Shown here piece by piece: positions 2,920 through 5,184 of a DNA stretch of 5,184 bases. Source of the DNA: Cyanobacteria bacterium HKST-UBA02 (GTDB taxonomy: Bacteria > Cyanobacteriota > Vampirovibrionia > Obscuribacterales > Obscuribacteraceae); assembly GCA_020431945.1 (NCBI GenBank), contig JAGQHH010000349.1, forward strand, positions 1-5,184, in the 5' to 3' direction. Position 1 is the stretch's first letter. Each line of letters begins with the position of its first letter. A program made the translations under genes and the position numbers. The notes below the pieces were generated by a model. It ran no database searches, was not told the DNA's origin, and saw only the letters and a program-made list of their open reading frames with translations.

Positions 2920-3198
2920 ATGCATGATAAATATGAATCAATCACACACCGCGTCGAGGACTCGGGACTCAGAGATCAGGTCGGAGCCTCACTCCGGCGG
3001 GATGTATACGGATCCCAGAGCATAGAAGACTGGGCCGGTCGGCGGGAAAGTCGACCCTCCGTTATCCTTCCAGACGTAATGCTGGTTGTTATCGGAGCCG
3101 GCTGCCCGAGCGAGGGTCAGAAGCACGTCGAACCGGGTGACGGCAAGACAGCAGCCCCGAAACATGCAAGCCGAAAGAAGAGTAGCCGGAAGGCGTGA
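2920..3198 (+). CDS. Small basic orphan protein sharing the WGSxSMED-type N-terminal motif
   Basis: 92 residues; I do not recognise the family. The start is supported by AAGGAG at 2904-2909, 10 bases before ATG 2920, and by the 22-base gap from the LysM gene, which suggests cotranscription. Residues 30-37 (YGSQSIED) align with WGSESMED at residues 28-35 of the preceding protein, at nearly the same distance from the start. Flanking R, V and G also match, giving 8 identities over 17 positions. After this come a short hydrophobic stretch (about 48-61, ILPDVMLVVIGAG), a single Cys at 62, a Gly/Pro-rich piece and a Lys/Arg/Ser-rich tail (KHASRKKSSRKA). The hydrophobic stretch is too short and too internal for a classical signal peptide or confident membrane helix. 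It could be a truncated relative of the LysM gene, a small partner protein or a peptide precursor; none is demonstrated. Confidence 0.7.
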   Translation: MHDKYESITHRVEDSGLRDQVGASLRRDVYGSQSIEDWAGRRESRPSVILPDVMLVVIGAGCPSEGQKHVEPGDGKTAAPKHASRKKSSRKA

Positions 3199-3222: not shown

Positions 3223-3259
3223 AGAATGTGGCTCCAGAGACGTTCTGGAGCTGCATTCT
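3223..3259 (+). terminator. Long hairpin with short T-tract: attenuator/terminator or start-masking structure
   Basis: The arms at 3223-3238 and 3244-3259 are complementary over 16 positions around the loop GACGT. Fourteen pairs are Watson-Crick and two adjacent ones are G-U wobbles; the inner 8 bp (GCTCCAGA/TCTGGAGC) are perfect. The 3' side runs into TTCTTTTG, a short T-rich tract like an intrinsic terminator. It also buries the GTG at 3228 and the CTGGAG sequence at 3245-3250, which would be the ribosome site of the alternative TTG start at 3261. It may therefore terminate the upstream operon, attenuate the kinase gene or gate its translation. Sequence alone does not separate these. Confidence 0.6.
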
Positions 3260-5039
3260 TTTGAAACACAGGCTTACGCGGAAGCTTCTCCTCATTCTGA
3301 TTATACCGCTGTGTTTCGAACTGGTCCTTTTTTCGACATGTGCCGTGATGCTCGAAATGGCAGAGACAGAGCGCTCCTTCGAGAAGGAATCAATCGGTAT
3401 CATCGCGCCGATGGGTTATGTCCTGGGTGCGACCATTAAACAAGTGTGCTTTGGTCTGTGGTACTCGATCACGGGATCCAGGCCATCTCCCGAGGAAGTG
3501 CGCGGCGGCCGGGCCAGGATACTGGACAGTGTTCGAAAGCTCCAGTCGGTAGCAGAGCGAAAGGGCCCGCACCGGGAAGACCTGCTCGAGTTATGCGATT
3601 GTGCCAGCGATCTGAGCAAGTCAATCGATGGGATTCTCACAGTTGAGCAGCGCAAAGGCCTCAGTCACCTGCTTGTCCTCGCCGAGCCGGCCGGCAGGCT
3701 CGATCAAATCTCAGGCAGAGTGCTGAAAGAGCTGAGCGACCGGCGGTCGGATCTGCAAGTGCATGATACCGCAATGCGGAGAATCTACAAAAACATTCTA
3801 CTGGTCAGCCTGGCTATAAGTGTGATTGTAGCTCTGTCGGGGTGCCTGGCATTTCAAGCAATCATATCCAGACCGCTCCGCAGACTGGCTGACGAGTCCA
3901 TGCGCCTGGCTGCCGGAGAAGAGGTGGTGCCACGGTTCACGTCCGGTGACGAGATAGGCGATCTCTACACCTCGTTTTGCTCGATGGCTTCTTCCATTGA
4001 GCAGAGCCGCAGAATCGAGCGATCGATTCTAGAGAATACCGGTGACATCATATGCACCCTCGATGAAACAGGGCATTTTCGGAGAGTGAACCAGGCTGTC
4101 AAATTGGTTCTCGGTTACAGCCCCGAAGAGCTCGAGGGGGAAGAGCTGTCCGCCATCGTTCCCGGGGAGCAGCTCCCAGGTGTGCAAGAGCAACTCGAGA
4201 ATATTCGCGAGCGCGTCGCCCTGGGCTCCTTCGAGTCGAGTCTGCGGAGGAAAAGCGGACTCACAATCGACGCAGTCTGGTCTGTTCGCTGGTCTGCCGG
4301 AGAGCGACTTCTCTTCTGTACTCTCTATGACGTGGGATATGAGCGCCAGACAGAGCGCCTCGGAAGGGATCTGAGGAAGACCATTGCAGAAGAGCTAAAA
4401 GGCAAACTGGTGCATGCTCGAAAGGACCTGGCAGAGATCGGATACCGGGTCGGGGACAGGAAGGACGAACGCGTCTCGAGGAAGATTGCCCGGCTCGAGG
4501 ACAACATAGTCAACCTGGTTCGATTGCTCGAAACTCTCGACCTTACTATGAATGCCGCCAATCCGTCCATGGTCCTCGCGACACAGCCTGTCTCGTCCAG
4601 AGCATTGATCGACTCGGCTGTCTCTGTAATAGAAGGTCTGGCCAGAAGCAAGGGAATCAGAATCGTCACCGACGTTGACGACTCCATGGTGGATGTAGAT
4701 CAAGAGCAAATCCGCAGAACCCTCGTGAATCTAATCTCGAACGCCATCAAGGTTTCCGAGTCCGGTGACGAGATCCGCTTGCGAGCGGCGGGAAGAGACC
4801 GAACAGTCAAGTTCGAAGTTATCGACAGCGGGCCCGGAATTCCGCTCAGCAAGCAGCACCTCCTGTTTCAGAGGTTCTCTCGAATAACGAGCACTGATTC
4901 AGCAGAAGGAAAAGGAACCGGGCTCGGACTCGTTAGCGCCAAAACCATCGTCGAGATGCATAACGGGCGAATCGGTGTTCTCAGCGATGGTGCCACCGGA
5001 ACGACATTCTGGTTCGAGCTCGCGGCGGTATCATCATGA
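3228..5039 (+). CDS. Membrane sensor kinase (HAMP-PAS-HATPase) lacking the H-box histidine
   Basis: 603 residues from GTG 3228. TTG 3261 (residue 12, MKHRLTRK...) is an equally good start with CTGGAG upstream. TM1 is about 20-41 (LLLILIIPLCFELVLFS). A largely helical extracytoplasmic region follows to about 188, CHASE3-like in length and style. TM2 is about 190-212, HAMP about 213-262 (RPLRRL, SGDEIGDL) and PAS about 264-372 (ENTGDIICTLDE...LFCTLYDV). The DHp helix at 384-394 reads TIAEELKGKL, where TVSHELRTPL is expected: the His is E388, and the Thr and Pro of the motif are also lost. The ATPase domain is complete: N-box NLISNAIK (N501, N505), G1 DSGPGI (D533), F-box LFQRF, G2 GKGTGLGL (561-568). 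Normal autophosphorylation at this site is therefore not possible, though ATP binding is expected. Role (inference): a partner kinase acting in trans, or a pseudo-kinase sensor. It overlaps the next ORF by ATGA. Confidence 0.93.
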   Translation: MAPETFWSCILLKHRLTRKLLLILIIPLCFELVLFSTCAVMLEMAETERSFEKESIGIIAPMGYVLGATIKQVCFGLWYSITGSRPSPEEVRGGRARILDSVRKLQSVAERKGPHREDLLELCDCASDLSKSIDGILTVEQRKGLSHLLVLAEPAGRLDQISGRVLKELSDRRSDLQVHDTAMRRIYKNILLVSLAISVIVALSGCLAFQAIISRPLRRLADESMRLAAGEEVVPRFTSGDEIGDLYTSFCSMASSIEQSRRIERSILENTGDIICTLDETGHFRRVNQAVKLVLGYSPEELEGEELSAIVPGEQLPGVQEQLENIRERVALGSFESSLRRKSGLTIDAVWSVRWSAGERLLFCTLYDVGYERQTERLGRDLRKTIAEELKGKLVHARKDLAEIGYRVGDRKDERVSRKIARLEDNIVNLVRLLETLDLTMNAANPSMVLATQPVSSRALIDSAVSVIEGLARSKGIRIVTDVDDSMVDVDQEQIRRTLVNLISNAIKVSESGDEIRLRAAGRDRTVKFEVIDSGPGIPLSKQHLLFQRFSRITSTDSAEGKGTGLGLVSAKTIVEMHNGRIGVLSDGATGTTFWFELAAVSS

Positions 5040-5173
5040 TGAGTTTAGGCAAACGGACACGAGGCGTCGGGGCCAGGTTTCTGGTGATTCTGTTGATCCC
5101 GCTTCTCTTCGATATAACCGTTATCTCGCTATCGATCCGGCGCCGCCGGAAGCTCGATAGCGGGGGAATATAG
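5036..5173 (+). CDS. Short membrane ORF repeating the kinase's TM1; possibly a broken second sensor gene
   Basis: ATG 5036 overlaps the kinase stop (ATGA), with a second ATG immediately after. The frame encodes 45 residues and stops at TAG 5171-5173. There is a basic N-terminus (GKRTRGVGAR), one hydrophobic helix (about residues 15-33, FLVILLIPLLFDITVIS) and a basic end (RRRRK). The helix aligns without gaps to kinase TM1 (LLLILIIPLCFELVLFS), including the shared I/L-P-L-x-F-acidic core, which points to a paralogous sensor gene in tandem. A different frame (from about 5116) stays open to the window edge, so a frameshift near the hairpin at 5126-5164 could have split a longer gene. Alternatively this is a genuine single-pass small protein. 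No strong ribosome site is seen; expression would rely on coupling. The window ends 11 bases after the stop, so this cannot be settled. Confidence 0.5.
   Translation: MMSLGKRTRGVGARFLVILLIPLLFDITVISLSIRRRRKLDSGGI
5126..5164 (+). other. Strong nested hairpin at the end of the short membrane ORF
   Basis: CGCTATCGA (5127-5135) pairs perfectly with TCGATAGCG (5154-5162). Inside it TCCGG (5136-5140) pairs with CCGGA (5146-5150) around CGCCG, with only AGC bulged. That makes 14 bp of stem, extendable by two more pairs outward. No T-run follows, so it is not a standard terminator. It occupies the codons just before the stop of the 45-codon ORF. Confidence 0.55.
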
Positions 5174-5184
5174 CGTTAACGAGT

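Follow-up and report, generated by a model that had tools for sequence, protein, structure and literature searches.

The window, i.e. the whole analysed stretch of 5184 nucleotides, carries on its forward strand a gene for a membrane sensor kinase (kinase A) and, overlapping its stop, the apparent beginning of a gene for another one (kinase B). The longest frame of kinase A runs from a GTG at 3228 to 5039 (+), and residues are counted from this GTG throughout. The following features were assigned:

2920..3198, + strand: 92-aa ORF before A, where four genomes have a small ORF of 145–168 aa
3261..5039, + strand: kinase A, a membrane sensor kinase whose HAMP and PAS domains are followed by a degenerate DHp and an intact HATPase_c (Pfam, alignment)
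3864..4004, + strand: HAMP domain of kinase A (residues 213–259, Pfam)
4020..4331, + strand: PAS domain of kinase A (residues 265–368, Pfam)
4341..4553, + strand: DHp hairpin of kinase A (residues ~372–442; no HisKA match by Pfam up to E=1)
4380..4409, + strand: degenerate H-box TIAEELKGKL of kinase A, starting at residue 385 (alignments)
4389..4391, + strand: GAA codon of E388, the phospho-acceptor position of kinase A (alignments)
4698..5024, + strand: HATPase_c of kinase A, its N, G1, F and G2 boxes all intact (residues 491–599; Pfam, 83.5 bits)
5036..5184, + strand: putative start of kinase B with its first membrane helix (by position and likeness to four B N-termini only)

The true start of kinase A is probably the TTG at 3261, because MKHRLTRK encoded from there aligns with the MKNRLTRK that opens P0003 and the A proteins of loci L068 and L070; the acceptor-site residue would then be E377. 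In the predicted structure the DHp domain is modelled as two helices (370–411 and 414–443). Upstream of A, the 92-aa ORF aligns at 18–28% identity with the small ORFs before A elsewhere (the set as a whole spans 18–32%), a weak likeness that makes it a putative homologue at most. A 289-aa protein without Pfam family is encoded at 2028–2897; over its last 71 residues it matches LysM below the threshold (13.1 bits, E 0.092), and no relatives of it turned up among 386 genomes sampled from the phylum. A TPR protein (596–1864), whose protein cluster also occurs on a 42,988-bp contig, overlaps the stop of an OmpR-type regulator with an Asp-containing receiver (1–603), which is cut by the window start. 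Rfam yielded nothing in the window at gathering scores. Promoter-like sites numbered 4 versus 2.0 in shuffles and terminator-like sites 8 versus 5.2, and none of these was used.

According to the original prediction, a Glu stands in kinase A where the phospho-acceptor His is expected, and the alignments bear this out. Using a profile built from the window protein, P0003 and P0004, E388 is placed on the His of VSHELRTPLT in VicK (4i5s) and of ISHELRTPLT in HK853 (2c2a/3dge). In a separate MAFFT alignment of 40 chosen hits column 388 is His in 37 rows, the three other rows being the window protein (E), P0003 (D) and P0004 (I). The Thr and Pro of the H-box, predicted to be altered too, are indeed changed in these three proteins: Thr/Asn at +4 is replaced by G/S/Q and Pro at +5 by K/T/A. 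Comparison with HK853 by VIA-align gave start and end points corresponding to an offset of 128 or 129 according to the chain, so the structure alone sets the acceptor site only to within one residue; residues 388 and 389 are both Glu. On the catalytic side, the alignment shows N501, N505, D533, G535, G537, F547, F550, G563, G565 and G567 all kept, and the claim of intact N, G1, F and G2 boxes stands, as does the HATPase_c match listed above. Measured against a canonical HisKA sensor kinase, kinase A thus has the HATPase_c boxes and lacks the acceptor His in the H-box. Among 142 related proteins examined, His occupies the acceptor column in 135 and Tyr in 2; the other 5 were unaligned, namely three family members, P0031, whose HDL box was read by eye, and P0075, a fragment beginning past the box. 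Two database hits, P0039 (SYELRSPL) and P0046 (SYELRTPL), have Tyr for His in an otherwise normal H-box, the DivL kind.

The clade of kinase A was found by a search of 382 genomes from one class of the cyanobacterial phylum. Since six distinct A members exist, with full-length frames in other genomes that are 36–42% identical to the window protein, we discarded the idea of a single-genome oddity. The acceptor site reads E in the window, D in P0003, I in P0004, G in L049, N in L050 and R in L051; L048, a near copy of P0004, likewise has I, and P0004 and L068 are near copies as well. Sixteen other loci from the same search, one per genome, have His at this site in every case (16/16). A Glu fixed among close homologues, the outcome that an alignment check might have given, was therefore not observed, and the suggestion that Glu mimics a constitutively charged state fails because the residue varies in this way among the six members. 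Loss of the acceptor His is rare but known, with 0.9% of HisKA domains (722/76,471) reported to lack it in a published survey (PMC12632262); Glu as such shows no sign of a special role. The N, G1 and F boxes are kept in all A members and so is G2, save in L049/L069, where a stop lies just ahead of it. The in-frame stop in the A gene of L069 (L069:3285–3287) is found right before the G2 box, GSGLGL can be read beyond it, and it may reflect either an assembly error or decay. Pfam detected HATPase_c in 6/6 scanned A proteins (five of them distinct; the interrupted A of L069 was left out) and HisKA in 0/6 up to E=1. The claim that the acceptor has gone and the ATP-binding motifs are conserved hence extends to the relatives of kinase A.

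Searches further afield gave little. In 386 genomes from the phylum, a draw that did not overlap with the 53 genomes of one order examined below, the A profile found nothing above 163 bits (three candidates scored per genome) and a sensor-domain profile produced 7 weak matches of 43 bits at most. Eighteen genomes of another class had no relatives at E 1e-50, and ten of them none at 1e-40 either. In viral contigs 0 of 51 pattern matches coded for a relative, and a scan of genome contigs with a single query returned 7 loci, each matching just portions of the PAS-to-ATPase region.

A second sensor kinase, kinase B, directly follows A on the same strand in all four complete loci (L068–L071). Its acceptor box is SHDLRSPL or SHDLRTPL and Pfam matches HisKA in 4/4 proteins (34.9–52.3 bits, cut-off 26.9). 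N501, D533, G535, G537, F547, G563, G565 and G567 are missing from all four B proteins, Asn occurs at column 505 in one of them, and HATPase_c was found in 0/4 by Pfam up to E=1. In place of the CA domain B has ~150 residues that are 25–35% identical among the copies and may have another role. By sequence, the two genes would together make up a split histidine kinase, one product having the ATPase without the His and the other the His without the ATPase. In the window and in L068, L070 and L071, the stop of A and the start of B share the sequence ATGA. From 5036 on, the window encodes MMSLGKRTRGVGARFLVILLIPLLFDITVISLSI, which reads beside the first helix of B, e.g. MKIALILCIPLVFEITVIATSI in L069; BLASTP of this end peptide against P0003 gave no alignment of note. 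The B frame of the window has a stop at 5171–5173, 11 bases short of the contig end at 5184, and here too assembly error or decay may be the cause.

Within ~30 bases after B, an OmpR-type regulator is encoded in the four loci, and these regulators are 68–74% identical among themselves. The regulator at 1–603 of the window had been put forward as a candidate partner of kinase A; as it is just 40–43% identical to the regulator following B elsewhere, we dropped it as the cognate of A. It is probably a different paralog, and the module's own regulator would lie past the contig end.

The distribution of both kinases was determined in the 53 genomes of the order, scoring up to 25 candidates per genome. 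The A profile reached at least 607 bits in four genomes (next score 331) and the B profile at least 962 bits in the same four (next score 250); neither A without B nor B without A was seen in the 53 genomes. Under random placement four would coincide with a chance of 3.4e-6, uncorrected for relatedness, and as A and B are adjacent their distribution amounts to one event, not two. In a tree built by a quick method with SH-aLRT support only, from the membrane-to-PAS columns with DHp and CA excluded and four rows removed beforehand, one branch sets the 6 rows of A apart and another the 4 rows of B, both with an SH-aLRT of 100, a result that comes with a warning of the tool about long branches of A and B meeting.

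We compared the conservation of the two halves of the kinase core in one joint alignment. Mean pairwise identities were 35% for DHp and 50% for CA among A proteins (5 rows, leaving out P0004 as a near copy of L068 and the truncated L069), 59% and 30% among B proteins (4 rows), and 58% and 50% among intact paralogs (16 rows). A and B thus each conserve, at about normal strength, exactly the half that the partner has lost. The DHp domains of A and B are 18% identical to each other. P0001, P0003 and P0004 show DHp identities of 27–37% at CA identities of 53–66%. As a control, a DHp identity of ≤38% was found in 1/34 canonical pairs at a CA identity of 54–60% and in 0/36 at 60–68%, counts from pairs that are not independent of one another; the control is weak at a CA identity of 48–54%, where 26.5% of 132 canonical pairs fall into this range.

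A further adjacent pair of complementary kinases, X1 and X2, is present in genome G456 with a gene order that is the reverse of that of A–B. X1 keeps SHDLRTPL and has FMPEDP for DxGxGI and GTRLGL for GxGLGL, and in X2 the box reads VSSDLRTPL, Ser replacing His, and the catalytic domain is intact. The X1 profile scored 1970 bits in G456, 1348 in G448 and 493 in G438 among the 53 genomes (next score 336), and X2 with Ser follows X1 in 3/3 genomes, which are other than the four with A–B. The three loci are:

L102:5618-10205: X1–X2 of G456
L133:2104-6598: X1–X2
L134:2322-6524: X1–X2 of G438

The X2 of L134 contains a stop after the N box and before G1, beyond which the profile match resumes; again this may be an assembly error or decay. 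Pfam still finds a weak HATPase_c in X1 (22.0–43.8 bits, cut-off 26.4) and HisKA in the X2 of L102 and L133 (34.9 and 35.7 bits; the X2 of L134 was left unscanned). The H-box of X2 is altered mainly from His to Ser, and A is without most of its H-box. X1–X2 therefore looks younger than A–B, since its lost halves are still recognised. In G438 (C2:20713–32026) we also noticed a cluster of kinase matches in open frames of 1255–1327 aa, which may be fused or tandem kinases. Of 46 paralog ORFs, a set in which the same gene can occur more than once, 42 carry the His as well as the ATPase motifs; the remaining four comprise two pieces of L076 (interrupted frame), X1 of L093 and the part of X2 cut at the end of the latter locus.

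Reciprocal loss and conservation, adjacency, gene overlap and identical distribution are found together in the A–B pair. As the neighbour B keeps the acceptor and is without the engine, it is most likely that neither A nor B works without the other, and we think it probable that they are an obligate heterodimer, a split kinase with A phosphorylating the His of B. The original prediction had named partners in heterodimers as one precedent for a degenerate kinase; with a reciprocally degenerate kinase gene next to A in 4/4 loci, this now appears to be the best reading, on a small base of four complete A–B loci and three X loci in related genomes. For sensing, A would use its membrane/helical domain together with HAMP and PAS; it would bind ATP but offer no acceptor. 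B, of the same architecture, would contribute an intact acceptor His with its +1 acid and no recognisable ATP-binding site. Made from overlapping genes, the two proteins would pair through their HAMP–PAS–DHp stalks, the catalytic domain of A would phosphorylate the His of B across the dimer, and B would in turn phosphorylate the OmpR-type regulator whose gene comes next. Output would then need both sensors. Weighing against this reading are the stops in the A gene of L069, the X2 gene of L134 and the B frame of the window, the residues that B has in place of CA, the Asn at column 505 of one B protein, the low identity (18%) between the DHp domains of A and B, and the Pfam scores that the degenerate halves of X1 and X2 still give.

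Alternatively, A could be a nucleotide-dependent allosteric regulator in the style of NifL or of DivL acting on CckA: it would bind ATP or ADP and switch B, or some other protein, to a different state, no phosphate being moved, and B would be phosphorylated by another kinase. There are precedents, as NifL is described as binding ADP/ATP and being neither kinase nor phosphatase (PMC11509896) and DivL as having no kinase or phosphatase activity (PMC4211667), and the DivL structure 4q20 shares the top rank, with others, in the structural comparison of kinase A. Taken alone, however, allosteric action leaves unexplained why the neighbour has kept its His and lost its ATPase, a pattern seen in two separate pairs, and why the catalytic half of A is conserved as in intact paralogs; we regard it as unlikely. 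That both genes are decaying remnants of a kinase duplication with no present function would fit the in-frame stops in the A gene of L069 and the B gene of the window, but full-length frames persist elsewhere at the identities given above, and the CA domain of A and the DHp domain of B are conserved like those of intact paralogs, which makes mere decay very improbable.

It is hardly credible that A phosphorylates itself at another residue or acts alone in another register. The nearest His, H396, does lie only eight residues downstream of E388 in the same helix, and a true phospho-His at such a site had been named as the finding that would overturn the loss of the acceptor. Its column reads H/A/E in three relatives, so H396 was rejected as the acceptor; the only invariant His residues, H544 and H578, are both in the ATPase domain, and the variability of position 388 also speaks against this reading.

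Returning to the split kinase proposed for A and B, the two pairs taken together lead us to favour, with some reserve, a broader interpretation: on two or more occasions, and in opposite gene orders, this order would have turned tandem transmembrane HisKA kinases into obligate complementary pairs. Half an active site would remain in each receptor and phosphoryl flow would need the heterodimer, resulting in a receptor-level AND gate created by reciprocal degeneration, with A–B as an advanced and X1–X2 as an early stage. Histidine kinases are usually treated as homodimers and lone kinases without His are difficult to interpret; a pair in which such losses are naturally reciprocal supplies a testable function for one such pseudokinase. 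It also forces phosphorylation to occur across the dimer, and partner choice in HisKA kinases can be studied in it without mutants. Because A–B and X1–X2 have decayed to different degrees, the steps that lead from a duplication to an obligate heterodimer can be compared. Surveys that tally a missing His or ATPase per single protein would overlook such pairs.

Split kinases are an established idea, and the published examples that we found are of the CheA type; a literature search by titles and abstract openings, covering few subscription papers, yielded no natural HisKA-type pair with reciprocal losses. HisKA proteins without HATPase have been counted (1,556/42,417; PMC3591291). Hik36–Hik43 of Synechocystis, called a split histidine kinase with an interaction detected by two-hybrid (PMC7656254), differs from A–B in that it is described there as an HPT protein and a CheA-like protein encoded far apart, not as a tandem HisKA pair. 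Like A, DivL of Caulobacter has a kinase fold without acceptor His and with DHp and CA kept; unlike A, it is reported to have Tyr in nearly all homologues and to bind an ATP analogue weakly (PMC4211667). In A the site reads E/D/I/G/N/R and the remainder of the H-box has gone, hence the absence of a HisKA match, and A does not show the Tyr in an otherwise normal H-box that marks the DivL type. NifL resembles A in having PAS domains and a kinase-like C-terminus that binds nucleotide without kinase activity (nucleotide binding by A being predicted), but it acts on NifA by protein contact, and the accounts cited here do not describe a reciprocal kinase neighbour (PMC8063818, PMC11509896). The ChrS pseudokinase of Corynebacterium is a dead sensor kinase that heterodimerises with another kinase, HrrS; unlike A it arose by a laboratory-evolved frameshift in the CA domain, and HrrS, unlike B, performs the cross-phosphorylation and is not described in that report as missing a half (PMC9491836). 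CheA3/CheA4 of Rhodobacter sphaeroides (PMC3591291, PMC6829392) form a split kinase of which neither protein autophosphorylates alone, and they share with A–B the acceptor His on one protein and the ATPase on the other. They differ in that whole domains are described as absent, with the P1 His domain and P3/P4 on separate proteins. A and B gave no Pfam match to Hpt or CheW up to E=1, which sets them apart from a CheA-type split kinase. In contrast to CheA3/CheA4, A and B are both membrane sensors of the HisKA type, full-length and equipped with HAMP and PAS domains, in which the halves are degraded rather than missing.
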